From a virus: a stretch of 64,000 bases of DNA. The notes beneath the pieces are model-generated. The model was not told the DNA's origin. It did no database searches and saw nothing but the letters and a program-made list of their open reading frames with translations. Position 1 is the stretch's first letter, and each line of letters starts with the position of its first letter. Location: positions 25,345-89,344 of the IMG/VR virus record IMGVR_UViG_3300008107_000157; one strand, given 5' to 3'. Shown in pieces: positions 3,631 through 63,976 of this stretch. The position numbers were made by a program, and so were the translations under genes.

Positions 3631-4512
3631 TTAAAGTAATTTGTATTGATTTATATATCTAACCAATTCTTCAGCCCAAATAGTATGTGATTCAGGAGAT
3701 GGGTGCCATCCATAATATACGGGGGTTGGATTTTTCTTTTCCATAAAACTTTTAAATGTATTGTTTGGTTGGTCTTTTTTATAGAAACGAATTCTATCTA
3801 CTGTATCCCACATTGGAACGTAATCATATTGATAAACGTGTCTACCTTTATGATTGGATATACTATATGGAGTACCATGTAAGTTTAATTTTTGTAACTC
3901 GTCTCTAACGTTTAAATCTTCCCAATCCATTGGATTTTTTCCTGGTGTTTGATAAAACGCATTAAACATCATCCATTTAATATTATGAGCTTTAAAAAAG
4001 TTTTGAAGTTGTAAAACGTTCATAACATATCTTGGTAAATATTCTTCCGCATTCCAAAGATATTGTACATATAACTTCCAAAATTCTTCTTGCTGTGGTT
4101 TATCGAAGTGCTGAACTTGTGGCCATAATCTAAATCTCATTGAGAAGTTTTCAATATCATCCTTATACCAAAAGAAATTTCTTTCAGGAGATGACCATCC
4201 AACTATTACAAATAAATCATCTGTTGGTAATTCTTTATCAATGTAATTTGATGTTATATATGCCATTGTTCTATGTGCAATAGTTCCATTATCATCGGCA
4301 GGCCAAGCTAAGTTTGTAACTTCTGCATTCATCATTTCTGATAATCGTGTTGGAAATATTTTTGGAATTCTATAATTATCATTCTCTTCCATCCAATCAT
4401 ATTTACCAGGATGAACTTCACCATCGAATCTCATACTGATTTGTGGGTCTGCTATTTCAGAACCAAATACCCAACTATCTCCATTGGTAATTATTTTTAA
4501 TTTTTTATTCAT
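3631..4512 (-). CDS. SGNH-like hydrolase (GDSW type)
   Basis: The 293-residue protein begins with IITNGDSWVFGSEI, in which Ser13 is the candidate nucleophile. A NLAWPADDN segment provides the second conserved block and WHPSPESH near residue 270 the C-terminal His block. GDSW-type SGNH proteins are common in large phages, where their substrates are not established. It overlaps the upstream SGNH gene by 8 bases, so the two are probably co-translated. It is rich in Trp and Tyr, as carbohydrate-binding enzymes often are. Substrate unknown. Confidence 0.72.
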   Translation of the reverse strand: MNKKLKIITNGDSWVFGSEIADPQISMRFDGEVHPGKYDWMEENDNYRIPKIFPTRLSEMMNAEVTNLAWPADDNGTIAHRTMAYITSNYIDKELPTDDLFVIVGWSSPERNFFWYKDDIENFSMRFRLWPQVQHFDKPQQEEFWKLYVQYLWNAEEYLPRYVMNVLQLQNFFKAHNIKWMMFNAFYQTPGKNPMDWEDLNVRDELQKLNLHGTPYSISNHKGRHVYQYDYVPMWDTVDRIRFYKKDQPNNTFKSFMEKKNPTPVYYGWHPSPESHTIWAEELVRYINQYKLL

Positions 4513-11296: not shown

Positions 11297-12724
11297 CTAA
11301 ATTAATACAGATAAATGATGATACTTTTGTATATGTGAATTACCAATAATCTGATACATACAGCTATTTAATCCATCCTTTTTTGTATCATATAAATCTT
11401 GCTTTATTTCATTTAAGAATTTTATCTGATTTATACGGGTTTCATTATGAACCCATCTACCACCATCCCAACTATTTGTCTTATGTGATAATAGTTTAAA
11501 TAATCCAACACGTCTATATGGAACATCTATCATTTTACCCAATGATTCTGTTGATTTAATAAAATGAGAATTAAATACTTGTCCATCATTTTTATTAAAA
11601 GTTAAGTCCATTATGTAATTGTTTCTAACAAATTTTGAATCATAATAGAGCATTAAATTTTCAGCGGAATTGTAGCCTCTAAAATTTTCTAATAAAGAAT
11701 TTTCTAAAGCCGTTTCTGATAATGTTTGAATTTCTTTAGGACTCAATATATCGTTGAATATTGCAAATTCGGAAATTGTTCCTGAAAAATAATTTGGATT
11801 ACTTCTTTTCGGGTCTCCTACTCCTAAATAAAAATGCTGCTCCTTAGAATAATCTTTTAATTTTCCTTTGTAATAATCTCTACCAACTAACTCACCATCT
11901 TTATAAAAAGAAATTGTTTTTTCTTCAGCATTTATTACTAAAGCTATTTGTGTAAAATGGTTTGTAAGTATTTCCGAATTTATTGAGATACATTTATTTT
12001 TATCATCCCAAACATCTACTTTATATCTTCTAAAAGAATTAAAAGAAATATTTGTATCGTATCCCGGTATAGAAAATACCGTAAAATCATCATATTCCAA
12101 ATTTGGATTTGAAACCAAATCATCTGGCTTAAAACTTATTAATATGGTTCTGTTTTTTGAAAAATCTAATAAATCTTTTTTCTCTATTTTAATATGAGAT
12201 TGCGAACCATCGAAGTACAATCCATATACATTTTTTACATCATTTTTTCCAATGATTGTAGTATCTAATGGTAGATTTTCGTTTTTACTTCTAAATAATA
12301 AATCATCATCTTCAAACCCCCATCCCCAATATAAATTAGAATAACCATTTATTTTTTCAAATGCTTCATTTGAAAACATAGTTACACCACCAAAATAATC
12401 TTCAAATGATAAATTTTTTGATTTATCGTTTTCTAATTCAAATTCGGTAGCAAGATGTAGTGGTATATCTGAATATGAATAATCAACATCAATCGGAATC
12501 ATATCCACATCGTGAAATACAACGTAATTACAATCTAATTTTTTAGCTTCTAAAAAGCCTATATTTAATAATTTTCCTCTATTAAATGGTTTTTTATCAG
12601 ATTGCTCTACGACTATTAATTCGTATTCTATATCATTGTTCGAAAGATAGGAAGGCATTTGCTTTATAAATTTTTCCAAATGTTCTTGTCTATCTCTATA
12701 TGGAACTATAACTCCTAATTTCAT
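11297..12724 (-). CDS. GT7 (beta-1,4-galactosyltransferase-like) - LamG fusion
   Basis: The 475-residue protein has an N-terminal GT7 domain: VIVPYRDR at the start, FNRGKLLNIGF, the metal-binding FHDVDMIP near residue 75, FGG, INGYSN and WGWGFEDDDL near residue 130. From about residue 170 a LamG-like beta-sandwich follows. GT7 enzymes move galactose or N-acetylhexosamine from a UDP-sugar to an acceptor; the fused lectin domain may hold the acceptor glycan. It is the only one of three GT7 genes here with a complete catalytic signature and N-terminus. Its stop is a TAG in frame with the truncated copy. Confidence 0.8.
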   Translation of the reverse strand: MKLGVIVPYRDRQEHLEKFIKQMPSYLSNNDIEYELIVVEQSDKKPFNRGKLLNIGFLEAKKLDCNYVVFHDVDMIPIDVDYSYSDIPLHLATEFELENDKSKNLSFEDYFGGVTMFSNEAFEKINGYSNLYWGWGFEDDDLLFRSKNENLPLDTTIIGKNDVKNVYGLYFDGSQSHIKIEKKDLLDFSKNRTILISFKPDDLVSNPNLEYDDFTVFSIPGYDTNISFNSFRRYKVDVWDDKNKCISINSEILTNHFTQIALVINAEEKTISFYKDGELVGRDYYKGKLKDYSKEQHFYLGVGDPKRSNPNYFSGTISEFAIFNDILSPKEIQTLSETALENSLLENFRGYNSAENLMLYYDSKFVRNNYIMDLTFNKNDGQVFNSHFIKSTESLGKMIDVPYRRVGLFKLLSHKTNSWDGGRWVHNETRINQIKFLNEIKQDLYDTKKDGLNSCMYQIIGNSHIQKYHHLSVLI

Positions 12725-27120: not shown

Positions 27121-27732
27121 TTATATTAAATTTTGTATATTTTTTTCTTTATAAAATTCTCTACCATTAAATGTAGTATATTTTAATTCATAATCACCAT
27201 ATTTAAAATAAGAATTTTTATATGGGAGAGATTCATATTCCGTTTCCGATAAGTTATATCTAATAGCATTAAATATGCCATCCACCATTGGTGTCTGAAA
27301 AAATGCAACTATTGTTCCTTTTTTACAATTAGGTTTTACATAATCTAAAAATTTAGGAATATTTGAATCCAAATGCGTATCGTGTAAAACTCCATCAAAT
27401 TTATCATTTAACGTTGGTAAAATATCAATCCAATCGCCTAAAAGTATTTTAGTATTTGGTTTATCTTTACACCATTCTAATGCGTTTTGATATATTTCGG
27501 GATGAACTTCTATAATTGTGTGCGATGTTACATTTGGGTTGGATTGTATTTCATCAGCTGATAAATGCATTCCAAATCCTATTTCTAAAATATCCCCACC
27601 ATTTTTAGTAACTATATTTGCTAGTTTTTGCATTAATGATAATTCACCTATATGCATAACTCTATCGCCATTTGTACAATCATCCATCATAATTTCATCT
27701 GATGATACAATTATTTTTTCTTTTCCATTCAT
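27121..27732 (-). CDS. Guanidinoacetate N-methyltransferase-like SAM methyltransferase
   Basis: The 203-residue protein has the class I SAM motif ILEIGFGMHLSADEIQ near residue 50, then HTIIEVHPE, LLGDWID and FDGVLHDTH. This exact order is typical of the guanidinoacetate methyltransferase and RMT2 arginine methyltransferase group. In a phage the substrate is unlikely to be guanidinoacetate; a protein arginine or a small nucleophile is possible. The start overlaps the primase fragment stop as ATGA. It is an unusual member of a replication and recombination operon. Confidence 0.75.
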   Translation of the reverse strand: MNGKEKIIVSSDEIMMDDCTNGDRVMHIGELSLMQKLANIVTKNGGDILEIGFGMHLSADEIQSNPNVTSHTIIEVHPEIYQNALEWCKDKPNTKILLGDWIDILPTLNDKFDGVLHDTHLDSNIPKFLDYVKPNCKKGTIVAFFQTPMVDGIFNAIRYNLSETEYESLPYKNSYFKYGDYELKYTTFNGREFYKEKNIQNLI

Positions 27733-46714: not shown

Positions 46715-48412
46715 TTATTTACTTATCAAATAATTACCCAATACCAAATAATCCATATCGGAATTTAGGAATGTCCAAATAGCTTTTTGTGGGTCATTAG
46801 TCATTGTGTGTCCTCTTAAATTAAAGGATGTATTTAATAATATTGGTGTACCACTAACTTTCTTAAATTCTTTTAATAATGTGTGATATAGTTTGTTTTG
46901 TTTTTTAGTAACAGTGTGTATTCTAGCTGAACCATCAACGTGAGTTACTGATGGAATAGATTTATAGTTAGTTACTTTAACTACTTGATTCATATATGGA
47001 ACTTCTCCTTCCGATGTAAAATATTTTGCATATTCCTCTACCACAACGGATGGTGCAAAAGGTCTAAACAATTCTCTCTTTTTTACAACTCTATTTATCC
47101 TATCTCTAACATCTGGCAAATGTGGATTAGCCAATATAGAACGATTACCCAATGCTCTTGCACCAAATTCAGTTCTACCTTGAAACCAACCAACTACTGC
47201 TCCATCATTTATAAGTTTTGCAACCTTTTGACACAACATCTTTGTATCATCGTAAAAAACTGCGTTATGCGTAACTTCTTCTTTCAGTAAAATATTTGTT
47301 AATTGTTGATTACTCCACTCTGGTCCTAAGTATGGAGATTGGTTATCGCCACCATTTACTTTTGGATTACCCAATGTATTATGCCAATGATATAAACAAG
47401 CACCAATCGCAGAACCTGCATCCGATGGTGCAAATGGAATCCATAAATTACCAACGGGTGCATGCTTTTGTATTTTTCCATTAGCAGTACCATTATATGC
47501 AGAACCTCCACCTAATACTAAATTGGATGTGTTGGATTGTTGCATACAATTGTTTGTAAAGTAATAAAAACAACTCTCATACCATTTTTGTAATGCGGCA
47601 GCTAAATCCATATGATGTTGTTCTATTTTGGATTCAGGTTCGCGTGGTTCGATTCCGATAAGATTTACCAATTTATATGTGTACATATCGGTATTTGAGT
47701 ATTGCCAAGTAAAATACTTTTGTTCAATCTCTATACTACCACGAACATCAAATTTTGAAATCTTATCAAATACGTGTTTGTATTTCATCGGGTCACCATA
47801 TGGTGCTAACCCCATTACCTTATATTCTCCATTATTTGGTTTGAATCCTAAGTATGCGGTTATAGTTGAATAAACTAACCCCAATGAGTTTGGAAATTTT
47901 AGGGATGATATTTCTTCAAATGTATTATTCTTACATCTTACTACTAATGCAGTTTCCCATTCACCAACACCATCAACTGAAATACCTACGCAATCATCGA
48001 ATGGAGATGTGTAATATGAAAAGGCTAAATGTGAATGATGATGTTTTACATATTCTAATTTGCCTGTAAAGTTTAGTTTTTTAGCTAGATACACACTTAA
48101 ATTACCTTCGGTTTCTTCAAATTCTTTTTTGAATTGTTTCCAAATCTTACGATTTTTCCACCAATGTTTACCTACAGTGTTTTTTACCCTATCGTATTTT
48201 AAGTTGGGGTCTTCATACCAACAAATAGTATCTATATCAGATATCGTTTTGTTTGAATATTGTAAAACCCATTTAATCGCTTGTTTTGGAAATGAGTTAT
48301 CATGTTTTATGCCAGATAACTTTTCTTCTTCAATAGCTGCTATTACCTTTCCGTTTTCAAATAAACAAACGGCTGAATCGTGGTAAAATGCTGAAATACC
48401 TAATGAAACCAT
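46715..48412 (-). CDS. Carbamoyltransferase, NodU/TobZ-like
   Basis: The 565-residue protein has an N-terminal VSLGISAFYHDSAVCLF and HHHSHLAFSYY, then VDGVGEWETA and MGLAPYG, and a C-terminal GRTEFGARALGNRSIL and LNTSFNLRGH. These are the kinase-like (ASKHA) and YrdC-like halves of O-carbamoyltransferases. The enzyme makes carbamoyl-AMP from carbamoyl phosphate and ATP and transfers the carbamoyl to a sugar hydroxyl. It sits between late sigma and structural genes and could act on the sugars made by the glycosyltransferases. Confidence 0.9.
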   Translation of the reverse strand: MVSLGISAFYHDSAVCLFENGKVIAAIEEEKLSGIKHDNSFPKQAIKWVLQYSNKTISDIDTICWYEDPNLKYDRVKNTVGKHWWKNRKIWKQFKKEFEETEGNLSVYLAKKLNFTGKLEYVKHHHSHLAFSYYTSPFDDCVGISVDGVGEWETALVVRCKNNTFEEISSLKFPNSLGLVYSTITAYLGFKPNNGEYKVMGLAPYGDPMKYKHVFDKISKFDVRGSIEIEQKYFTWQYSNTDMYTYKLVNLIGIEPREPESKIEQHHMDLAAALQKWYESCFYYFTNNCMQQSNTSNLVLGGGSAYNGTANGKIQKHAPVGNLWIPFAPSDAGSAIGACLYHWHNTLGNPKVNGGDNQSPYLGPEWSNQQLTNILLKEEVTHNAVFYDDTKMLCQKVAKLINDGAVVGWFQGRTEFGARALGNRSILANPHLPDVRDRINRVVKKRELFRPFAPSVVVEEYAKYFTSEGEVPYMNQVVKVTNYKSIPSVTHVDGSARIHTVTKKQNKLYHTLLKEFKKVSGTPILLNTSFNLRGHTMTNDPQKAIWTFLNSDMDYLVLGNYLISK

Positions 48413-54043: not shown

Positions 54044-54556
54044 TTAAATTAAAGTAAACTTTGATTGTTTTTTTGAAAACCAAACAATTAAAACATCTCT
54101 AAATCCCTTAGTTACTTTATCAACAGAATGCCAATCTTCACCGCCGTTAAAACAAATGTAATCACCTTTCTTATTCAATTCTACTTTTTTATCATTTACA
54201 TACATATCGCCACCATCAAAATCATCTGATAAAATTAAACTAATTGTTTTATGTGTAGTAAACCTATCTTTGTGCCTTTTTGCATAACCACCAACGCCAT
54301 AAATCAATCGGTGCATCATATATAAGTTTTCGTATGTTTCATTGAATTTATTGCATACGAATTTATTTAAAGATTCATTTTTTAAAGATAAAACAAAACT
54401 TTTTTCAGTATAAAATACCCCACCATTATCTCCTGCTATTGTAAGATATAATCCAGGATGAGCTAATTTTGTATATTTTAAATCATCACCCTCTAATACA
54501 TCGGTTTTATCTACTTCCGATTTCAAAAAATAAAATTCATCTTTGTCTAAATTCAT
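54044..54556 (-). CDS. 2-oxoglutarate/Fe(II) oxygenase (prolyl 4-hydroxylase-like)
   Basis: The 170-residue protein has the HxD...H...R signature: YAKRHKDRF (iron ligands His and Asp), EDWHSVDKV (second His) and GFRDVLIVWF (Arg for 2-oxoglutarate). Its core fits the P4H-type double-stranded beta-helix. It would hydroxylate a protein or small molecule. It is the first of four such oxygenases in 54-61.5 kb and ends in FTLI. Confidence 0.78.
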   Translation of the reverse strand: MNLDKDEFYFLKSEVDKTDVLEGDDLKYTKLAHPGLYLTIAGDNGGVFYTEKSFVLSLKNESLNKFVCNKFNETYENLYMMHRLIYGVGGYAKRHKDRFTTHKTISLILSDDFDGGDMYVNDKKVELNKKGDYICFNGGEDWHSVDKVTKGFRDVLIVWFSKKQSKFTLI

Positions 54557-54559
54557 ATT

Positions 54560-55624
54560 CTAAATTAAATATTTTTTTAAATCTATCAATTCATACATAT
54601 TGTGAAATACATATGGATTAGTTGCAACTTTTTTAAATTCTTTTACGAATAACGAATGCTCCGGATGATTACTATCCCCAATATCAATTAATTTAAATTG
54701 AACATCGGAAAACGTACCCCAATTTGTAATTCTACCAAAAAACACTTTTGTTTTATTTTTGAATATGGAATACATTAAATTTAAAAATGTTTCCATTTCA
54801 TTGTAATTTGATTGTTGGACCACAAAAGAACACTTAATACTCTCCAATGATTTTATAGTTGAAATGAAATTTAAATTTGAAATTAAATTATCCCAATTAC
54901 CCCCTAACCTTGTTACATTTTCGTAAGTATATTGTGCACCGGCATCTATACTTATTTCACAACTATGAACATACTTATGTATATTTGGCATACTATCCCA
55001 CATTTCTTTATTCCACAAACTGGCATTTGTATGTAGGTGGATTGATTTTAAATTTGGATATTTTGATGCATCAAATTTTCTAAGATAGTTTCTATATGAA
55101 GCAGATGCAAATGGGTCTGCTGTGCCTGAACAATATATGGTTTCTATGGAATTGGAATAAGCTTCTTCTATTTCATCTATGGTTGCATTAATACTTTTAA
55201 TCTTACCACTATCCGCAACTATCATATCTATTCTACACGATGGGCATTTAAAATTACAAGTCCTATCAAACGACATTTGAATTATCTTAGGGCCAACATC
55301 TAATATTGTATTTTTAGTTTCATAACTTTTTTGCATAACTTCAGTCAAATTATTAATATGTTTTATAGGTCCTGAAGTGTTTGTTTTATATTTTATTAAT
55401 TTTGATAAAAATGGACATTTTACTTTATCACAATATTTGTACGAACCATCCATAACCGAATTTCGTATATCAATAGCTTCGGATGAGTTCCATAATTCTT
55501 TTAATGGAACATTGTTTGGTAGTTCTTTAGTAAGCCAACTAGAGCAACACATATGGTTTTGTTTTTCCATTATCTCCAATGCTTCAAATGGAACACTACA
55601 TATGTAACTTTTTAAATCTACCAT
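54560..55624 (-). CDS. Radical SAM protein with SPASM-like cysteines
   Basis: The 354-residue protein has CNFKCPSC near residues 122-129, the radical SAM motif. Its N-terminal region carries further cysteines (CSVPFEA, MCCSS and YCDKVKC) that resemble SPASM auxiliary cluster sites, here before the core. A CSGTADPF segment stands in place of GGEP. It may modify a peptide or a sugar. Its neighbours include two sulfotransferase-like proteins and a small peptide gene, so peptide maturation is one possible role. Confidence 0.78.
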   Translation of the reverse strand: MVDLKSYICSVPFEALEIMEKQNHMCCSSWLTKELPNNVPLKELWNSSEAIDIRNSVMDGSYKYCDKVKCPFLSKLIKYKTNTSGPIKHINNLTEVMQKSYETKNTILDVGPKIIQMSFDRTCNFKCPSCRIDMIVADSGKIKSINATIDEIEEAYSNSIETIYCSGTADPFASASYRNYLRKFDASKYPNLKSIHLHTNASLWNKEMWDSMPNIHKYVHSCEISIDAGAQYTYENVTRLGGNWDNLISNLNFISTIKSLESIKCSFVVQQSNYNEMETFLNLMYSIFKNKTKVFFGRITNWGTFSDVQFKLIDIGDSNHPEHSLFVKEFKKVATNPYVFHNMYELIDLKKYLI

Positions 55625-55637
55625 TATATTAAACTTT
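55622..55637 (-). repeat. Cassette-boundary repeat
   Basis: Coding-strand AAAGTTTAATATAATG: it encodes the SLI end of one gene and the start context of the next. The same sequence recurs at three or more junctions in this island. Confidence 0.55.
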
Positions 55638-56142
55638 GCGTATATTCATCACGATTTCCCTTTCTTAATCTATTCTCACTATTTAAATCATAGATATCTT
55701 CATAATATGTAATTGGTATATCTAATTTTGTAGATATCATTTTTAAAGTAGTATCCCACTTTATTATATCAGAATAACACTTATCAAAGTTTGGCGTTTC
55801 ATTCCAAATATATTGCATTTCGGATGTAAACCCCTTCTTTCTATTGAAAACTGCATATGCATGGCTTTCGGCGCACTCTATTAAATTCTTTCTAGATAAT
55901 AGGATTACCTCATCAAATTTTTTTGAAAACTCTAATATCCATTCATTATAATCCAATACATCGGATGGCTTCTGAAACAAAACAATAGTTTTTACTACAA
56001 CATTATCCATCGCATCATTATATGTATATCTATTAGTACCATCAAATGGTTCAAATACTTCTTTAAGTTTTTTTGATTTGGATATATTCTTTAGCAATGA
56101 AGTGGAGCCTGTTCTTGGTAATGAAATTATTAATATTCTCAT
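55624..56142 (-). CDS. Sulfotransferase-like P-loop protein
   Basis: The 172-residue protein begins MRILIISLPRTGSTSLLKN, with the LPRTGSTS P-loop typical of sulfotransferases that bind 3'-phosphoadenylyl sulfate. A later segment ILLSRKNLIECAESHAYAVF matches the second conserved region (RxxxxSxxS/H type). The protein is shorter than most sulfotransferases and may be a minimal form. Sulfation of a sugar or peptide is likely. It ends in SLI. Confidence 0.72.
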   Translation of the reverse strand: MRILIISLPRTGSTSLLKNISKSKKLKEVFEPFDGTNRYTYNDAMDNVVVKTIVLFQKPSDVLDYNEWILEFSKKFDEVILLSRKNLIECAESHAYAVFNRKKGFTSEMQYIWNETPNFDKCYSDIIKWDTTLKMISTKLDIPITYYEDIYDLNSENRLRKGNRDEYTQSLI

Positions 56143-56660
56143 ATCAGTTTCTTTTGATTATCTAATTTATAGTAAACAAAATCGGTATCATTCATCCATA
56201 TATTTAATGCACATCGTAATCCGATTGTCACCGGCATAACTCCGTGATAAATACTATTACCTTCAAATGTAATACCCTCTCCTATATTTAAATTAATTTT
56301 TGTATCCGCATCATTTAGTTCACAAAACGTATTAGATAACACAAATCTACCATCATCATAATCATTTGTTAAAGATATAACTGTTGTATAGTTTGAAGTT
56401 TTATCCAAATGTAAATCTAACCGCCTACCATCATAGTATCTTGTCATACTCACATTTATGTTTCGTATGTTAAATGATTCAAATTTTTGTACTTTTAAAA
56501 TTCTATCCAATACATACTCCTTAAAATTTTCATCATACACACGCCTACAATCCCAAACTTCATTTGAATCGTAATTAAAAAATTCTCCATTAGTTGTACA
56601 AAAATCTATAATATGTTTGCACTCCTTTTCATCAAAGTAAAAGTTTTTATTGTACATCAT
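56139..56660 (-). CDS. 2-oxoglutarate/Fe(II) oxygenase
   Basis: The 173-residue protein has LDLHLDKTSNY (His and Asp of the iron site), SIYHGVMPV (second His) and IGLRCALNIW (Arg). The beta-helix core includes TTVISLTNDYDDGRF. It would hydroxylate a protein residue or small molecule using 2-oxoglutarate and oxygen. It overlaps the upstream SGNH and downstream sulfotransferase-like genes by 4 bases each, a tightly coupled set. Confidence 0.76.
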   Translation of the reverse strand: MMYNKNFYFDEKECKHIIDFCTTNGEFFNYDSNEVWDCRRVYDENFKEYVLDRILKVQKFESFNIRNINVSMTRYYDGRRLDLHLDKTSNYTTVISLTNDYDDGRFVLSNTFCELNDADTKINLNIGEGITFEGNSIYHGVMPVTIGLRCALNIWMNDTDFVYYKLDNQKKLI

Positions 56661-57496
56661 ATTAAAAAGGAATTATCTATTCGTATGGGGGTTAGTAGAT
56701 TATTTTTAACAATAAAATCATGCATTTCATCTGCTATTATCTTATATCCATTTTTACTAGGATGCTTTCCAATTGTAGTATCTGTCCATAACATATTATC
56801 CTCCCAAACATCACTTCTATTTAATGCTCCTAATACATCTTTTAAAGTCTTTTGACCTAATCCCCAGTATCTATTTTCATTTATAAGATTTACTTTGTTT
56901 ATTGAATCTCTAATATCACCCCGAATCATTGAATCAAAAGCATCGCAAAACATATATCGTATCCCTAATTCATTAAAAATATATTGTAGATATATAATAT
57001 AGTTTTGATTTACTATATCGTAGTAATCATCTGTAAATAAATTATCGTAGTAGTACTGCCTAAAGTTTTTTTCAGCCCTTGTAAAATGTATGTTTTCATT
57101 TTTTATAGGCAAACCATAGAAATTGGTTTCTTTTAGATATTCAAAAAGATGTTCTTTTTGTTTATGTCTTTTCCCCCAAAAAACAAATGAATTTATTTCT
57201 GGAAAGAATGGTACAGCATCTCTTAAAGATGATGACCACATTATAACTACAAAATCTTTATTAGTAATAAATCCATTTCGTAATTTAAAAGATATAGCAT
57301 TAAAAATAGCGTTATTAGATGAACCACCTGCTCCTAAATTTTCTACTTCTATATTAAGTAGTTTAGATAGTTGCGTAGGCCATGCGTACTTATGTCGTAT
57401 ATTTGTTCTTTCTATTGGAACATCTGTAGTATATTCCTCTTCTAAATCACCACCAACTCCTTCAGTCCAACTATCTCCAAATGTAAATAACTTCAT
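56657..57496 (-). CDS. SGNH-like hydrolase (GDSW type)
   Basis: The 279-residue protein begins MKLFTFGDSWTEGVGG with Ser9 as candidate nucleophile, then NLGAGGSSNN (about 54-63) and GKHPSKNGY near residue 249. All three SGNH blocks are therefore visible. It overlaps the next oxygenase gene by 4 bases. The same family dominates the left island. Substrate unknown. Confidence 0.75.
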   Translation of the reverse strand: MKLFTFGDSWTEGVGGDLEEEYTTDVPIERTNIRHKYAWPTQLSKLLNIEVENLGAGGSSNNAIFNAISFKLRNGFITNKDFVVIMWSSSLRDAVPFFPEINSFVFWGKRHKQKEHLFEYLKETNFYGLPIKNENIHFTRAEKNFRQYYYDNLFTDDYYDIVNQNYIIYLQYIFNELGIRYMFCDAFDSMIRGDIRDSINKVNLINENRYWGLGQKTLKDVLGALNRSDVWEDNMLWTDTTIGKHPSKNGYKIIADEMHDFIVKNNLLTPIRIDNSFLI

Positions 57497-57511: not shown

Positions 57512-57649
57512 TTAAAGGTGCTTTTCTTTAATTTTATTTACTACTTCTTGAAAAGCAGCTGCTACTTTAACTTTTACATCTGTTGAAATTGGAGTTACAT
57601 TTGCTTTTATAATTTGAGCAGGTCTTTCTACTCTTACACTTTCTGCCAT
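57512..57649 (-). CDS. Small 45-residue peptide, possible substrate of the modification island
   Basis: A 45-residue frame from ATG 57649 to TAA 57512. It begins MAESVRVERPAQ and has a helical second half with KVKVAAAFQEVVNKIKEKH. There is no cysteine and no membrane segment. It sits between the Hint protein and an SGNH hydrolase, in the midst of oxygenase, sulfotransferase and radical SAM genes. It could be a small regulator or a substrate peptide; no proof. It starts in a TATG context with an A/T-rich upstream region as other genes here. Confidence 0.5.
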   Translation of the reverse strand: MAESVRVERPAQIIKANVTPISTDVKVKVAAAFQEVVNKIKEKHL

Positions 57650-57673
57650 ATTATTTTAGTTTTTTAATTGTTA

Positions 57674-59173
57674 TTAAATCTTTTGCAATCTACTACCACC
57701 ACCACCACCACATCCTGGACAATAATTACTATTACACCAGTGACCACAATAGTTCCAAGGACACCAACAACTGTTATGTTGTACACCAAAATCACCATCA
57801 CCAAAATCAACTAAGAAAAGGTCGGATGATTCAAAATCCAAACTATAAATAGTTTTATTAGCGTGTTCCATTTCCAATCCAGCGATAGCGATGGTTGTTA
57901 GTTCATTAGTAGTAGAATCCGTAATAACTAACTTATCACCCACATACATCTTATTAACATTTTCAAATCTAGTAGCTAAAGAACCAGATTGCTCTATATA
58001 ATATTTTGCAGAAGGAGCATCTGTCCAACTTCTACCATCTTCCAATGTTATACGAATGTATATTGTATCAACTGAAGCGGATATAATATGTTGTAGTACC
58101 GACCCGGTTTGTATTAATGTTGAATTATCTTGCGATATTGTACTATTCCATCCAAATGTTTCGATTTTATCCTGTTCAAATTTAGCAGCATGATTATCGT
58201 TGAAATCTACATAATCAATAGAACGAACATAATCGCCTAATTGAATAGTATCTATATCCATTAACGTTCCATCAAATTTCAAAATAACACTATCATCATC
58301 GGTATGGTAATCATTTTTTGCAAAGTTACCTAATTCTTTTGTAATGTATTTATATCTGCTTTTTTGATTTAGTTTATTTGTACCTGATACAAACTCATCA
58401 GGTGTAAATGTTAATGGAATTATGGTTGATTGTCTATATCCGCCTAAATTTATTACATCTAAATTTCCACCATAAATTATATCAATGCTTCTTATAATTG
58501 AATATCTACCATTTACAACATTATCTTCTGAAAAAATAAACTCCTGAACTAAATGATTTGTTTCTACACTATCTTTAATTGTGGATAATTCGGTAGTATC
58601 GGAAGCCCTATATAATGCAGGATAATCCATTATTTCATATTGTGGATATCTGGCTTTAACTATTACGTTTGGCGTTTCCGTTGTTTCATAATCAACATCA
58701 TTTAAGCTTTCTAAACTTAAACTATCCGATGTAAAAAATGTTTTTGGTATATAATTAGAACCACTCATTAATGAAAAGAACTCAAATTTATCGGCACAAT
58801 ACGTTTCATCTACTAAAGCAGTTGTATCAAATGATTGTCTTAAAATAAACTTATTAACTGCATCTTCTATATAAGGTACAGTTACAGAGTTATAAGGTAC
58901 TGCGTAATCTTGGAAAGTTATTCCATTTGCTAAACAATTTTCTTCTAATAATTTTTTAAATTTAAATTGTTCATTTAGTGGAGTATATGCCGATGTTTCT
59001 GTCCATATAAAATGGAATTCAGTTATTCCATTCTCATTTAAAACATTAAATAAAGCATCGTAATCTAAATAATCAGCACCTGTATTGTAAATTGTGGTAT
59101 TGGTATTTATTTCTAAAAACTTTACGGAATTACCATACTCCAATAAATCGCTACCAATTATAGTTCCTTTCAT
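57674..59173 (-). CDS. ATP-grasp-like protein with C-terminal Hint domain and Cys-rich tail
   Basis: The 499-residue protein has an N-terminal region (1-270) with NVIVKARYP, LVQEFIF and GRYSIIRSIDIIY, which resembles ATP-grasp enzymes. From about 290 a Hint-like beta domain follows: DSVILKFDGTLMDI, QLGDYV, later VGDKLVI and FLVDFGDG. It ends at GVQHN followed by Ser468, the His-Asn-Ser junction typical of intein and Hint cleavage. The last 32 residues hold six cysteines including CPGC and a Gly run. The layout suggests self-processing that releases a Cys-rich peptide. Similar proteins occur in large phages, always as unknown function. A late-type motif lies upstream. Confidence 0.65.
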   Translation of the reverse strand: MKGTIIGSDLLEYGNSVKFLEINTNTTIYNTGADYLDYDALFNVLNENGITEFHFIWTETSAYTPLNEQFKFKKLLEENCLANGITFQDYAVPYNSVTVPYIEDAVNKFILRQSFDTTALVDETYCADKFEFFSLMSGSNYIPKTFFTSDSLSLESLNDVDYETTETPNVIVKARYPQYEIMDYPALYRASDTTELSTIKDSVETNHLVQEFIFSEDNVVNGRYSIIRSIDIIYGGNLDVINLGGYRQSTIIPLTFTPDEFVSGTNKLNQKSRYKYITKELGNFAKNDYHTDDDSVILKFDGTLMDIDTIQLGDYVRSIDYVDFNDNHAAKFEQDKIETFGWNSTISQDNSTLIQTGSVLQHIISASVDTIYIRITLEDGRSWTDAPSAKYYIEQSGSLATRFENVNKMYVGDKLVITDSTTNELTTIAIAGLEMEHANKTIYSLDFESSDLFLVDFGDGDFGVQHNSCWCPWNYCGHWCNSNYCPGCGGGGGSRLQKI

Positions 59174-59204: not shown

Positions 59205-59214
59205 TATAAATATC
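59205..59214 (-). promoter_or_regulatory. Candidate late promoter motif
   Basis: Coding-strand GATATTTATA, 31 bases before the ATG at 59173. It separates the Hint-protein unit from the upstream genes. Confidence 0.45.
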
Positions 59215-59222
59215 GGTTTGAA

Positions 59223-59510
59223 TTAAATTAGTGAATTTTTCTTTTTTATATCCAATGACTTTATATATTGTGAATCTATATTTTCCCACTTTCCTATTGG
59301 ACATGGACTAAAATTTTGAGAAAATACTTTTTTATTTAAGGGGCATCCGCATTTTCCACAAACTGCACTCCACTCTACTCCTTTCAATACCTCTTTTCTA
59401 TGTTCGCATCCTAAACAAATAGATAATCTTTTTTTAGCTAATTCTTCTTGAATAGCAGTTGGATTAAATGATGCTTTCCAAGCTTTAAATATTTCTTTAT
59501 AATCAATCAT
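59223..59510 (-). CDS. Zinc-ribbon protein (DUF6171-like)
   Basis: The 95-residue protein has CLGCEHR, CGKCGCPL and CPIGKW, together four or more cysteines placed like a zinc ribbon. Such CxxC...CxxCxC...CP arrangements are common in phage and bacterial small proteins of unknown role. The N-terminal 30 residues are helical (KEIFKAWKASFN). It ends NSLI, the tail shared by its neighbours. Confidence 0.7.
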   Translation of the reverse strand: MIDYKEIFKAWKASFNPTAIQEELAKKRLSICLGCEHRKEVLKGVEWSAVCGKCGCPLNKKVFSQNFSPCPIGKWENIDSQYIKSLDIKKKNSLI

Positions 59511-59535
59511 ACTATATTAAACTTTTTTCTTTTTT
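59508..59535 (-). repeat. Cassette-boundary repeat
   Basis: Coding-strand AAAAAAGTTTAATATAGTATG: the end of the sulfotransferase-like gene (KSLI) merges with the start region of the zinc-ribbon gene. Nearly identical to the copy at 60238-60264. Confidence 0.6.
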
Positions 59536-60240
59536 TGGTAAATCGTAATAATCATAGATATTATTATATCGTTTTATAAACGTATCATTCAATATTAAAT
59601 TTGTTTTAAAATGATTACTACTATTTGATTTTTCCAATTTAAACTCTCTACCTAACTTTTCAGAAACCCAATTTTCTAACTCATATAATTTATCAAATTC
59701 AAACCATATAATATTTGGGTCATGGTTGTGGTATTCTGATATTGGTGTGAACAATATATAAAGCATTTTTCTAACTGTATCATTCATATAAGGCCTTATT
59801 CCATTTCTATTTACAAACTCCTTAATAACATCTACTCTCGTTTGCTCACTTATTAAATCATCTTTAGTATAAAATAAAATATCATCTAATTTTAGATTCT
59901 CTAATCTAAGATTTAATAATGGGGAGTTTGCGGAATTAGATAAGTCAACCACATGCTTCCATAATGATATAAACCTATCGTGTCTATTTCTTCTTACACC
60001 AATTATATCATATTCATAACCAAATTTTTTATACAAATCTGTAATTTTTTCATGCCCATGCACAATCGTATCAGCCAATTCCTCATTGGACATATTCATA
60101 TCAATAATACTACTCCACTTTTTATAAAACATTTCATCATAATGTTCGATATTTATATTGTTTCGTAAACATGTTATATAAAATGATGTAGATGCGCATC
60201 TTGGCAAACTTAAAGATATAAATTTATTATCAACTAACAT
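59512..60240 (-). CDS. Sulfotransferase-like protein
   Basis: The 242-residue protein has SLSLPRCASTSFY near residue 10, the PAPS-binding loop of sulfotransferases in the form LPRCASTS, and DIIGVRRNRHDRFISLWKH, the second region with the Arg/Ser triad. The C-terminal half is helical and binds the acceptor in relatives. It is the second sulfotransferase-like gene in this island. It ends KEKSLI, the same tail as the upstream oxygenase. Confidence 0.75.
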   Translation of the reverse strand: MLVDNKFISLSLPRCASTSFYITCLRNNINIEHYDEMFYKKWSSIIDMNMSNEELADTIVHGHEKITDLYKKFGYEYDIIGVRRNRHDRFISLWKHVVDLSNSANSPLLNLRLENLKLDDILFYTKDDLISEQTRVDVIKEFVNRNGIRPYMNDTVRKMLYILFTPISEYHNHDPNIIWFEFDKLYELENWVSEKLGREFKLEKSNSSNHFKTNLILNDTFIKRYNNIYDYYDLPKKEKSLI

Positions 60241-60264
60241 TATATTAAACTTTTTTCTTTTTTA
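60238..60264 (-). repeat. Cassette-boundary repeat
   Basis: Coding-strand AAAAAAGTTTAATATAATG encodes the KSLI end of the upstream oxygenase and the start context of the sulfotransferase-like gene. Confidence 0.6.
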
Positions 60265-60896
60265 ATAAACGTAAATCCTACATTACCCGCCATAACAATT
60301 CTATCTATTGTAGATTTGGGAGCATTTTGAGGTGAGTGTGGCATATCGGCTTCCATTATTATCAAATCATCTTCTTCCGGCCTTATCCAATATTCTTTAT
60401 CATTTTTGCCTTTAAAATATAACACACCATCTTCCCCATTCATCACATCTGGCATTTGAATATAGTAAACATATGTATAATGTGGTACAAACAATTTCAT
60501 ATCCTTATTTATATCAGTATGAATATGATACTTATCAATACCTTTTAAATCTTTGTGTTTAAATTGTATTTGTACCGGGTTTTGTGAACGAACTACATTA
60601 ACCCACGCATCTGTATTTATTTTATTGTATGTTATATTTTTTTCATTGTATAGTTTTTTACATTCATTAACACCGATTTGAACTATTTCATCTAATTTTG
60701 TTTCTACAATAAAATCACCAGTAAAATCTAAATTACCATTCCATTCGCTTTTATAAGCAAAGCCATCTGTTTTTACATCCGGCATCGAATCTATAATACT
60801 ATATGCTTCTTTTAAAAAGAATTGTTTATCTTCTAATCGATTTAATTTTGTTTTCCAAATGTAAGTCGAATCATCGTAGTATAGTTTTTCAATCAT
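60240..60896 (-). CDS. 2-oxoglutarate/Fe(II) oxygenase-like protein
   Basis: The 218-residue protein has KYHIHTDINKD (candidate His and Asp), EADMPHSPQNAP (second His) and STIDRIVMAGNV (Arg). It resembles phage prolyl 4-hydroxylase-like proteins. It overlaps the next gene by one base and ends KEKSLI. Like its relatives it probably hydroxylates a protein or a peptide; substrate unknown. Confidence 0.7.
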   Translation of the reverse strand: MIEKLYYDDSTYIWKTKLNRLEDKQFFLKEAYSIIDSMPDVKTDGFAYKSEWNGNLDFTGDFIVETKLDEIVQIGVNECKKLYNEKNITYNKINTDAWVNVVRSQNPVQIQFKHKDLKGIDKYHIHTDINKDMKLFVPHYTYVYYIQMPDVMNGEDGVLYFKGKNDKEYWIRPEEDDLIIMEADMPHSPQNAPKSTIDRIVMAGNVGFTFIKKEKSLI

Positions 60897-60914: not shown

Positions 60915-61484
60915 TCATATTAAACTCTTTTGCTTTATACAACTTGGCCAAACATTTAATGAATATCGTATGCCGGCAGTAACGTTATCTACAGAATGAA
61001 CTATATTAGAATCGAATATGAAAACACTGCCCTGCTTTTTTTGAATAGTATATTCTTCATCATTTATTATATACTTAACATATCCATCATCATACTCATC
61101 GTTTAATTGGATTATATATGTAATAGTAGCCCCATACATTATCTCATGCGAATCAGAATGCCAATCTAAGAAATCACCCGCCGAATATCGATTGAATGAA
61201 TATTTTGGAATAGAGTTATACTTTATTCCGTTGTATGGATTTAATTCATTTGATATATTGATTATTTTGTTAGATACCGATTTTAATAAATCACAATTTA
61301 AGGTATCATCTACAAAATAACATCCCATACGTTTATTACCAGCGTAATCTACGTTTGAATCAACAACTTTACCATTAACAATACGTGATGATTTCATTGC
61401 TTCCAATCCTATCGAATTACCCAATTCTATAATCGATTCACATTCATAGTTTGTTAGAAAATCATCTATATAAGTTGTAAACAT
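60915..61484 (-). CDS. 2-oxoglutarate/Fe(II) oxygenase (prolyl 4-hydroxylase-like)
   Basis: The 189-residue protein has FLDWHSDSHE (iron His and Asp), SNIVHSVDNV (second His) and GIRYSLNVWP (Arg), the complete signature. The core YGATITYIIQLNDEYDDGYV is the jelly-roll sheet. It is the clearest oxygenase here. Its end QKSLI again contains the shared tail. Confidence 0.78.
   Translation of the reverse strand: MFTTYIDDFLTNYECESIIELGNSIGLEAMKSSRIVNGKVVDSNVDYAGNKRMGCYFVDDTLNCDLLKSVSNKIINISNELNPYNGIKYNSIPKYSFNRYSAGDFLDWHSDSHEIMYGATITYIIQLNDEYDDGYVKYIINDEEYTIQKKQGSVFIFDSNIVHSVDNVTAGIRYSLNVWPSCIKQKSLI
60916..60932 (-). repeat. Cassette-boundary repeat (variant)
   Basis: Coding-strand CAAAAGAGTTTAATATG, ending the oxygenase with KSLI and TGA. 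Confidence 0.5.
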
Positions 61485-61832: not shown

Positions 61833-62474
61833 TTATATGAGCTTTATATTCGTATTTGATTTAATCATTCTGATAAACTCATTTGCTAATTGTATATGCC
61901 CTACTTCACCATAGTGACCATTAACTATTTCTTCATTTGTTTCTTTGGTTATATTTGTTACATTCCCTATGTAGTTTTTACTTACGATTCTATCCAACGG
62001 CGACCAATGTATTATGAGATTATTAGGAAATGCAATATTCAATAACTTTATCCAACTATGAACCTCACTAGCATATTTTGTTTTTGTTCTATTAATTAAT
62101 ACCTCTTCCAAAGTAGTATTCGATACATCTTCTAAATTCCTTATGTTTCCATCGAACATTGGTATTATTGGTTTCCAATTATCCCATTTATCAACCAAAC
62201 GGAATCGAGTACAAGATGACCATCCTATTATAATAACATCATTTGAATTAATAAGATTGGCTGAATCACATACGGATTGGAATATACTATAATTATCAGA
62301 ACCGCCTCTACCTAAATTAACTAATTCCATTCCCATCTCATCTGAAATTATTTCACCATATACTCTGGGTATGTAACCTTTCCAAGCAACATACTTATCA
62401 ACCCACAATGCTCCGTTTGTAGTGTTAAGTGATTCAGTAAAACTATCTCCATATGTCCAAAGTGTTTTTTTCAT
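61833..62474 (-). CDS. SGNH-like hydrolase
   Basis: The 213-residue protein has TYGDSFTES at residues 7-15 with candidate Ser11, NLGRGGSDN as the second block and NGHYGEVGH near residue 190 as the C-terminal His block. It is a compact SGNH hydrolase like those in the left island. It begins a few bases downstream of the G-rich tract at 62484. Substrate unknown. Confidence 0.75.
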   Translation of the reverse strand: MKKTLWTYGDSFTESLNTTNGALWVDKYVAWKGYIPRVYGEIISDEMGMELVNLGRGGSDNYSIFQSVCDSANLINSNDVIIIGWSSCTRFRLVDKWDNWKPIIPMFDGNIRNLEDVSNTTLEEVLINRTKTKYASEVHSWIKLLNIAFPNNLIIHWSPLDRIVSKNYIGNVTNITKETNEEIVNGHYGEVGHIQLANEFIRMIKSNTNIKLI

Positions 62475-62709: not shown

Positions 62710-63729
62710 TTATATATCAATTCCTTTCGCTTTTAATCTACTTAGGAGTGATGCGTTTGTATTCGTTAGGTTTTGTTGTGCTTGGAGTAATTGTCTTCTT
62801 AATTCCGATTGAGCGGCCGTATCGCCCGCTTGAGCAGTTTTAATGGTATTCTCCGTTTGGTCAATCTTCTTTTGTAAATCCGTTTGAGCCTGCTCTACCT
62901 TTTGTGCCAAATCATCTGCTTTGGCTTGGGCGGCATCGGATTGAGATGTGGATACGAGGGGTTGCTTATCTACGGCGGTAGAAGATTTACTCACCACTTG
63001 AACGGATATATCATCTCCCGAATCTGCTGCGGCAAGAATAGTATATTTAGTTGTTGAAGTAGGTGTAATCTTCCCAAAGTAGAATATATCCTTAATAGCT
63101 TGGAAATCGGAATTCAATTGTGCTAACCTATCGTTAATTATCTTAATGTTATTAGCCAGTTTATCTTCGGGTACTCTCGCATCCTTATCTAATGGTTCTA
63201 CGGGTATAGCATCTATTGAGTAATCTGCGGAAAGATTTAAATCAAATACCTTATATGTATCTAATGGTTTTTCAGCATTAGGGGATAATGTCCATATGAT
63301 TTGTTTAATAAGAACTGAAGTATCGTTACCATTAATCTCCCACTCTACATCCTTAACACCTGAAAAAGGAATCTTACCCTTTTGTTTCTCTATCTCCTCT
63401 AATATCTTTAGGGTATCTATTGGTATAATAGGGATTGTCTTTCCCATTCTAGCACCTAATACCTTAGAGTGTTCCTTATATGTGTAGTGGGGGTTTATAG
63501 AAACCGAGTCCGCAAGGGTTTCTAATAACTCCGAAGATGCCAAATAGCGATTGTAATTCCTTAGATAAATAATAACGCCTTTGATATCAAAAGGTAATAC
63601 GCCCTCTATATCCAAATCATCCTCTAAGACTTGAATCGTAACGGGGGTTAATCCCTCCTTAGCGGATATCTTATATCCATTATCCTCTTTGAAGTACCTT
63701 CTTTGGTTTTGTTGTAGTTCTACTATCAC
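62710..63729 (-). CDS. Structural protein with C-terminal coiled coil
   Basis: The 339-residue protein has a beta-rich N-terminal two-thirds and an Ala/Gln-rich coiled coil from about 265 to 330 (QSDAAQAKADDLAQKV, then QQNLTNTNASLLSRL). Such tails trimerise in fibre and neck proteins. It overlaps the upstream 98-residue gene by 50 bases, so its true start may be a little downstream of 63729. Its codon use is less AT-rich than genes to the left of 62.5 kb. Confidence 0.65.
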   Translation of the reverse strand: MIVELQQNQRRYFKEDNGYKISAKEGLTPVTIQVLEDDLDIEGVLPFDIKGVIIYLRNYNRYLASSELLETLADSVSINPHYTYKEHSKVLGARMGKTIPIIPIDTLKILEEIEKQKGKIPFSGVKDVEWEINGNDTSVLIKQIIWTLSPNAEKPLDTYKVFDLNLSADYSIDAIPVEPLDKDARVPEDKLANNIKIINDRLAQLNSDFQAIKDIFYFGKITPTSTTKYTILAAADSGDDISVQVVSKSSTAVDKQPLVSTSQSDAAQAKADDLAQKVEQAQTDLQKKIDQTENTIKTAQAGDTAAQSELRRQLLQAQQNLTNTNASLLSRLKAKGIDI

Positions 63730-63976
63730 CTTTAATTGCTTTCTTATATATAGTTAATTCTTTAATTCCTCTTCTTGCTATCTTCTCTAAACGAAGGACC
63801 TCTCTACGAATCTGCTGATAAGAACCATCCTCAATAGTATGGTATATCAATTCGTTACATCTCATATCATCGGTTATCTTATGAGTTGAAGCATCCCACA
63901 TTTCTAATCCTCTTGCCATTCCAACCGCAGTTCCAAACTCCTCCGATATTCTTACATATGTATCTTGTCTAACCAT
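63680..63976 (-). CDS. Hypothetical protein
   Basis: The 98-residue protein has a helical, charged sequence with a basic C-terminus (RRGIKELTIYKKAIKGDSRTTTKPKK). It is not recognised. A clear ATATTTATA motif ends 14 bases before the ATG, matching the late motif and spacing seen at 37763-37772. It begins the short late unit that includes the coiled-coil protein and the small membrane protein. Confidence 0.6.
   Translation of the reverse strand: MVRQDTYVRISEEFGTAVGMARGLEMWDASTHKITDDMRCNELIYHTIEDGSYQQIRREVLRLEKIARRGIKELTIYKKAIKGDSRTTTKPKKVLQRG

Follow-up and report, generated by a model that had tools for sequence, protein, structure and literature searches.

Candidate peptide-tailoring system of T4-like phages centred on an ATP-grasp/Hint polyprotein with a six-cysteine tail

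The analysed stretch, named here the window, comprises 64,000 nucleotides (positions 25,345-89,344) of the virus record IMGVR_UViG_3300008107_000157, whose whole length is 89,344 bases. It contains a gene encoding a 499-residue polyprotein with an ATP-grasp-like part, a Hint domain (Hint1) and a tail with six cysteines; the next gene encodes a small peptide, P45, and the pair is surrounded by an island of genes encoding candidate modifying enzymes. With a probability of about one half, we favour a phage-encoded tailoring system centred on the polyprotein and resembling the pathways of ribosomally synthesized and post-translationally modified peptides (RiPPs). This reading is favoured because the anatomy of the polyprotein, a subfamily with two Hint domains, a C-terminal tag shared by island proteins and the chemistry of the neighbours converge. 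An earlier note, made from the letters of the window, had suggested phage-encoded peptide maturation. The idea is strengthened by the two-Hint subfamily, the conservation of the island and the tags; cleavage and modification are its predicted steps.

In the proposed mechanism the polyprotein would be made late. Hint1 would cut after Asn467 by asparagine cyclisation and so release the C-terminal peptide rich in Cys, Trp and Tyr, whose other end a canonical second Hint domain (Hint2) would trim in the divergent subfamily. The 2-oxoglutarate (2OG) oxygenases, the Trp halogenase of most relatives, the radical SAM protein and the GDSL proteins would modify the peptide before or after release, and the sulfotransferase-like proteins, fed by APS kinase, may also act on it. 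The tag, K-x-[TS]-[LI]-[IL], would gather the enzymes at one hub, the best candidates for which are the untagged, always paired polyprotein and P45. Such a system would work like a RiPP system with Hint-mediated release, and is filed here neither under a named RiPP class nor under PT-HINT. A bolder version can be offered only tentatively: a new type of peptide factory in a lytic phage, in which Hint domains excise a Cys/Trp peptide from an ATP-grasp polyprotein, more than ten unrelated enzymes are recruited by the K-x-[TS]-L-I tag, and the peptide is the native substrate of a viral halogenase group.

Judging by its baseplate-wedge, SbcCD-like and tail-block genes, the window phage is a T4-like myovirus. 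Its tail-block genes are nearest to those of Flavobacterium phage immuto and Microcystis phage Mel-JY01, and its host group is perhaps Bacteroidota. Relatives of the polyprotein were found in IMG/VR in 95 stretches by a first search and in 163 by a later one, and a DNA-pattern scan of viral sequences gave 113 stretches, a few of them unrelated to the polyprotein. Individual relative loci of the comparison set are labelled L002-L248. The carriers are T4-like viruses, uncultured and mostly aquatic, and their group is widespread; no relatives were found in the phage-isolate collection (tblastn) or in two scans of prokaryote genomes (one per GTDB species).

The polyprotein and its tail

The main elements, all on the minus strand of the window, are as follows.

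57674..59173, minus: polyprotein gene, 499 residues, ATG start; ATP-grasp, Hint, six-Cys tail
58310..59173, minus: putative circularly permuted ATP-grasp domain, residues 1-288 (AlphaFold, Foldseek 3n6x/3k1t, 50-row alignment)
57773..58309, minus: degenerate Hint domain, residues 289-467 (Foldseek to Hint structures, alignments)
57773..57778, minus: His466-Asn467, predicted C-terminal cleavage junction (invariance)
57677..57772, minus: six-Cys tail, residues 468-499 (alignment, composition)
57512..57649, minus: P45 peptide gene, 45 residues, next gene after the polyprotein, product ending KHL
59205..59212, minus: TATTTATA, promoter-like motif upstream of the polyprotein gene

The polyprotein has no match in Pfam, PHROGs, NCBIfam or PDB sequences, and a profile search of the latter gave nothing useful. 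The anatomy described in the earlier note, a 499-residue protein with a 32-residue six-Cys tail, a CPGC motif and a Gly run after His466-Asn467, was borne out by the reading of the open reading frame (ORF) and by conservation. The window tail has cysteines at positions 469, 471, 476, 480, 485 and 488, four Trp and two Tyr. Over the first 21 tail residues, Cys makes up 29% and Trp and Tyr 13% each; Ser, Gly, Pro and Asn come next, and charged residues are nearly absent. The cysteines are not variable in homologues: H466, N467, C469, C471, C476, G477, C485 and C488 are invariant in all 58 distinct aligned proteins, and C480 is kept in 57/58. Conservation is 99% in the Cys columns, 60% at the other positions of 468-488, 38% in the following Gly/Pro-rich stretch and 74% in the rest of the protein; a chance Cys-rich tail was rejected on these grounds. 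The tail (468-499) is modelled with a predicted local distance difference test score (pLDDT) below 50.

The tail has three kinds of ending. In 71 of 77 distinct proteins the sequence stops 25-33 residues past the His-Asn (HN) pair, and one further protein is cut by the contig end. In five proteins (L165, L185-L188; identity with the window protein ~35-42%) the last Cys is directly followed by a second Hint domain, so that a Cys peptide of 23-25 residues sits between Hint1 and Hint2. Hint2 matches PF14890 and PF07591 above cut-off; its Cys1, TxxH, block-F His and HN are invariant in the four aligned sequences, with Phe or Met at +1. This position of the peptide between two Hint domains is the strongest sequence argument that excision may be intended. 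Finally, L081 has a Peptidase_S74-like C-terminal segment with SDISFKENV, identical in L083 from another metagenome, which makes one distinct protein; the match of this segment to PF13884 (E 0.02) is below cut-off.

Residues 1-288, modelled alone, give a confident fold (AlphaFold pLDDT 88.6, predicted template modelling score 0.84). The best Foldseek match is 3n6x (E 2e-4), described as a putative glutathionylspermidine synthase, followed by 3k1t (E 8e-4), a putative gamma-glutamylcysteine synthetase; the third, 5oev, is not significant (E 0.1). The 3n6x family is circularly permuted. The N-terminal segment GSDLL...FLEINTNT of the polyprotein holds the D...ExN metal motif, which normally ends an ATP-grasp. 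In the two-Hint protein L187, residues 5-29 weakly match the end of the ATP-grasp profile (positions 234-258 of 278, E 0.2), and residues 169-219 weakly match RimK (E 0.05); the latter is the best ATP-grasp sequence match, none being above the curated cut-off. The fold matches, the N-terminal metal motif and the order of the L187 profile matches argue for a circularly permuted ATP-grasp with active-site residues kept. D9, E21, N23, K173, E211 and R228, whose roles are assigned by motif, are invariant in 50 sequences (D9, E21 and N23 also in the divergent subfamily). Thus the ATP-grasp-like region of the earlier note stands as a fold, but not as a plain layout, since it is circularly permuted.

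The Hint domain and the predicted cleavage junction

The second part of the polyprotein has a Hint fold, as seen by AlphaFold on a 45-row alignment and Foldseek. The top matches are inteins, bacterial intein-like (BIL) domains and hedgehog domains (E 4e-8 to 1e-4), among them hedgehog 1at0 (E 6e-7, template modelling score 0.76 of target), so the predicted Hint fold is present. Hint1 of the window protein has no PF07591 (PT-HINT) match, and the hhalign alignment of Hint1 with Hint2 is weak and out of register. Therefore position 1 of Hint1 was assigned by the DG anchor, and the Hint call rests on structure. Position 1 is the invariant His290; in any register there is no conserved Cys, Ser or Thr there.

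HN-x-C after Hint1 is kept in all 77 distinct proteins reaching the tail, whereas the residue at +1 is free (S37, G13, P10, A8, T8, N1). Thus HN of the His-Asn-Ser junction proposed earlier is invariant, but Ser468 is not conserved (S in 37/77) and the junction is not Ser-specific. Nor is Hint1 the usual self-cleaving domain: Cys1 and the block-B His are missing. An ordinary splicing intein was rejected, as the +1 residue is no nucleophile and residues of blocks A and B have been lost. Asparagine cyclisation cuts the C-terminal junction, and not every intein needs the block-F and the penultimate His (PMC4031507, a review). Given this and the residue losses in Hint1, the C-terminal junction could be cut and no cleavage is expected at the N-terminal one; it is plausible that Hint1 would perform solely C-terminal cleavage by asparagine cyclisation.

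The enzyme island

The island genes of the window, all on the minus strand, are listed with the C-terminal tags of their products.

61833..62474, minus: GDSL-family member (by clustering), tag KLI
60915..61484, minus: 2OG-Fe(II) oxygenase OXY1 (PF13640, E 9e-12), tag KSLI
60240..60896, minus: 2OG-Fe(II) oxygenase OXY2, tag KSLI
59512..60240, minus: sulfotransferase-like protein ST1, tag KSLI
59223..59510, minus: Cys-rich protein, 95 residues, phrog_13558-like, tag NSLI
56657..57496, minus: GDSL-like hydrolase (PF00657, E 6e-5), tag FLI
56139..56660, minus: 2OG-Fe(II) oxygenase, OXY1 paralogue (PF13640, E 2e-6), tag KLI
55624..56142, minus: sulfotransferase-like protein ST2, PRTGST motif, tag SLI
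54560..55624, minus: radical SAM protein, tag YLI
54044..54556, minus: 2OG-Fe(II) oxygenase (PF13640, E 7e-7), tag TLI

Polyprotein and linked modifying-enzyme genes recur together across loci, the kind of linkage by which RiPP clusters are recognized. The flanks of the polyprotein in 76 loci contain 2OG-oxygenases (75), ST1 (68), the 95-residue Cys protein (67), ST2 (66), a second oxygenase type (60), GDSL (56), Trp halogenase (44), APS kinase (25) and radical SAM (20), all these counts being lower bounds, as many loci are incomplete. The two-Hint subfamily is surrounded by much the same gene set. Thus the previously noticed island of radical SAM, oxygenase and sulfotransferase-like genes is conserved and also wider than described, with a Trp halogenase and an APS kinase in most relatives. 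The halogenase matches PF04820 with E 2e-92, the APS kinase its family with E 5e-19. Among 45 halogenases, GxGxxG is present in 42, the catalytic Lys in 43, PLE in 45 and GWxxxIP (W or F at the inner position) in 37.

In L060 (8781-9188) the island contains a SET-domain protein (PF00856, E 7e-8) with an LI tag, a candidate lysine-methylating tailoring enzyme; the ORF at L134:9130-9513 looks similar.

A shared C-terminal tag

Families with three or more distinct members near the loci number 47; of these, 16 have at least 70% of members ending in [LI][LI], whereas 26 have at most 20%, mostly zero. Distant homology may connect the three types of oxygenase with one another, and perhaps also those of sulfotransferase, so the 16 families represent fewer independent folds. 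The consensus is K-x-K-[TS]-L-I. Tagged are ST1, ST2, OXY1-3, halogenase, radical SAM, GDSL, the 95-residue Cys protein and several unnamed families; the polyprotein, P45, NMNAT, TM71, APS kinase and the tail fibre are untagged. Within the window, the LI ending is found in 10 of 13 genes of the island vs 2 of 53 elsewhere (Fisher P 8e-8). The tag is absent around the halogenases of HTVC008M, P-SSM2, S-H38 and S-RIM44, and from the halogenase of the two-Hint subfamily.

An origin of the tag in overlapping start codons, as an artefact at the DNA level, was mostly rejected, as 91 of 106 genes with the next ATG at least 25 bases off are still tagged. The Ile codons of the tag favour ATA (73% vs 47%), and thus some start-overlap effect exists. 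Selection is mainly at the protein level, since Leu codons in the tag match body usage and stop codons vary. One tag on unrelated folds points to a common recogniser and a common task; alternatively, it may be a proteolysis or packaging signal.

Far from the island, the window genes 27121-27732, 11297-12724 and 3631-4512 end in QNLI, SVLI and YKLL, respectively, and may belong to the tagged set. The first resembles a methyltransferase family found in the island of other phages.

P45 and the promoter-like motif

P45 is present in all 74 assessable cases, 72 of them identified by hidden Markov model and two read directly. The family comprises peptides of about 37-50 residues with the consensus ERPaqtIKaivaPiss.lKtKvatAFqavVtaIKvKHL, and the two-Hint subfamily keeps a shortened form. 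The 45-residue peptide beside the polyprotein, pointed out earlier, is thus a universal downstream neighbour, but its sequence has no variable core, and for this reason P45 is likelier a partner than a natural-product precursor.

From eight sense occurrences in the window, TATTTATA lies at most 60 bases upstream of six genes (binomial P 1e-6): the polyprotein gene, a 98-residue ORF (63680-63976) and four tail-block genes. The positions near genes, in the sense for minus-strand genes, are 29201, 30422, 32376/32382, 37763, 59205 and 63991. Across relatives the motif precedes 57 of 71 distinct polyprotein genes vs 13 of 788 other island genes. Its reverse complement is the T4 late consensus. It is a candidate late promoter of this phage group, and the polyprotein is probably expressed late.

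Weighing of the alternatives

Several points count against a released and tailored peptide. Hint1 has no Cys1; block-B His is replaced by A/S/C/T at 389 and block-F His by Asp451. Pro at +1 disfavours C-terminal cleavage of inteins, and it occupies this position in 10/77 proteins, including all five two-Hint ones. The sulfotransferase label of ST1/ST2 comes from motifs and one sub-threshold Sulfotransfer_2 match (E 0.0012). The window's own record contains no halogenase and neither do 18 further records checked, hence halogenation is not essential to the system. The raw counts of halogenase presence against the CWCPW tail are 41/52 vs 2/14; no link is claimed, as a tree test on independent pairs, which were too few, gave p = 1.

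Alternatively, the polyprotein or just its tail could be made late as a structural or adhesive component of the virion, with the island enzymes decorating tail or fibre proteins and the peptide staying attached or displayed. We regard this as unlikely, although TATTTATA is common to the polyprotein and tail-block genes, the Peptidase_S74-like domain of L081/L083 is typical of phage fibres, and tail-fibre genes lie near the island in 18 loci. An ATP-grasp with active-site residues kept would be unusual for a structural part, S74 occurs in one distinct protein only, and the two-Hint form exists.

It is more doubtful still that nothing is released, the dead Hint being a structural linker and the six cysteines binding metal as one domain of an ATP-grasp ligase, maybe acting on P45. 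The lost catalytic residues of Hint1 and the Pro at +1 agree with this, as does the universal P45, and the invariant H290, D292 and D451 could form a site. However, HN is invariant despite the loss of the other catalytic residues, a second Hint of the active type stands directly behind the peptide, and, Cys aside, the tail is more variable in sequence and spacing than the remainder of the protein.

Very unlikely is a glycan or small molecule (e.g. in surface decoration) as the substrate of the island enzymes, with the polyprotein a mere neighbour. A methyltransferase-like gene (RMNT_CmcI, E 4e-5), the GDSL and sulfotransferase-like genes and a sub-threshold match to a sugar-transfer ATP-grasp (E 0.2) would fit. 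However, it is the enzymes that vary around a constant polyprotein/P45 centre, and a conserved Trp/Cys/Tyr peptide suits a halogenase and sulfotransferases.

Least probable is a redox peptide rather than a halogenated product, with a Cys-Trp cross-link (similar to cysteine tryptophylquinone) built in the tail by the flavoprotein and radical SAM: the PF04820 protein also weakly matches the peptide maturases LodB, QhpG and GoxB, the tail has a CWC motif and radical SAM occurs in 20 loci, but the PF04820 match is far stronger (E 2e-92 vs 6e-7), the halogenase-type Lys and PLE motif are present in nearly all, and many loci keep the tail without a halogenase-like gene.

Comparison with known systems

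In polymorphic toxins, PT-HINT stands just before a small C-terminal cargo, for which autoproteolytic release was proposed (PMC3482391). Hint1 of the polyprotein also directly precedes a small C-terminal cargo; unlike PT-HINT, the cargo is a Cys/Trp peptide and not a toxin domain, the N-terminal part is an ATP-grasp, and PF07591 is not matched. The two-Hint subfamily resembles BIL domains and BUBL loci (Hint-ubiquitin-Hint) in having a small unit between Hint domains without a +1 nucleophile. The comparison with BUBL draws on the PDB titles 6tmm/6y75 among the Foldseek matches. In contrast to those loci, Cys1 is lost from Hint1, a Cys peptide of 23-25 residues forms the unit, and the origin is a phage. 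With 3n6x the polyprotein shares the permuted order of the metal motif and nucleotide-binding parts, but it is fused to a Hint and a peptide and has no significant sequence match.

Bromination of peptidyl Trp by flavin enzymes is known in RiPP pathways (PMC10858898, PMC10286304). Marine proteusin brominase clusters are similar in that a flavin halogenase acts on peptidyl Trp there and a Trp halogenase is present in the island of relatives here. In contrast to proteusin clusters, no proteusin leader, protease or export gene was seen in the island, the ATP-grasp and Hint are in the leader position, and there are many oxygenases and sulfotransferase-like genes.

VirX1, the first characterised viral halogenase, is listed in a review without an associated biosynthetic cluster (PMC8407142), and antiSMASH found no biosynthetic clusters in 153 cyanophage genomes (PMC10452541). 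VirX1 and other Trp-halogenase-like genes of cyanophages and pelagiphages are comparable to the island, as PF04820-type genes adjoin 2OG-oxygenases in HTVC008M and P-SSM2. They differ in identity (~28-36%), in the lack of a polyprotein relative in the phage-isolate collection and in the lack of the tag. The island looks like a virus-encoded assembly line for peptide decoration. Tying halogenases, oxygenases and sulfotransferase-like enzymes of T4-like phages to one conserved peptide would make the question of their substrate directly testable. The tag on many unrelated enzymes would be a simple, portable means of building an enzyme assembly line, and it offers a sequence handle on further members.

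Trp-halogenase genes stand beside 2OG-oxygenases in L189 (HTVC008M) and L190 (P-SSM2), in the latter also near genes annotated for assembly of the L-shaped tail fibre, and beside a second halogenase in L192 (S-RIM44); the halogenase substrates of these phages may also be phage-made. Within the tail/baseplate region of the window, a Nol-like carbamoyltransferase gene occupies 46715-48412 (phrog_1601, E 6e-124).
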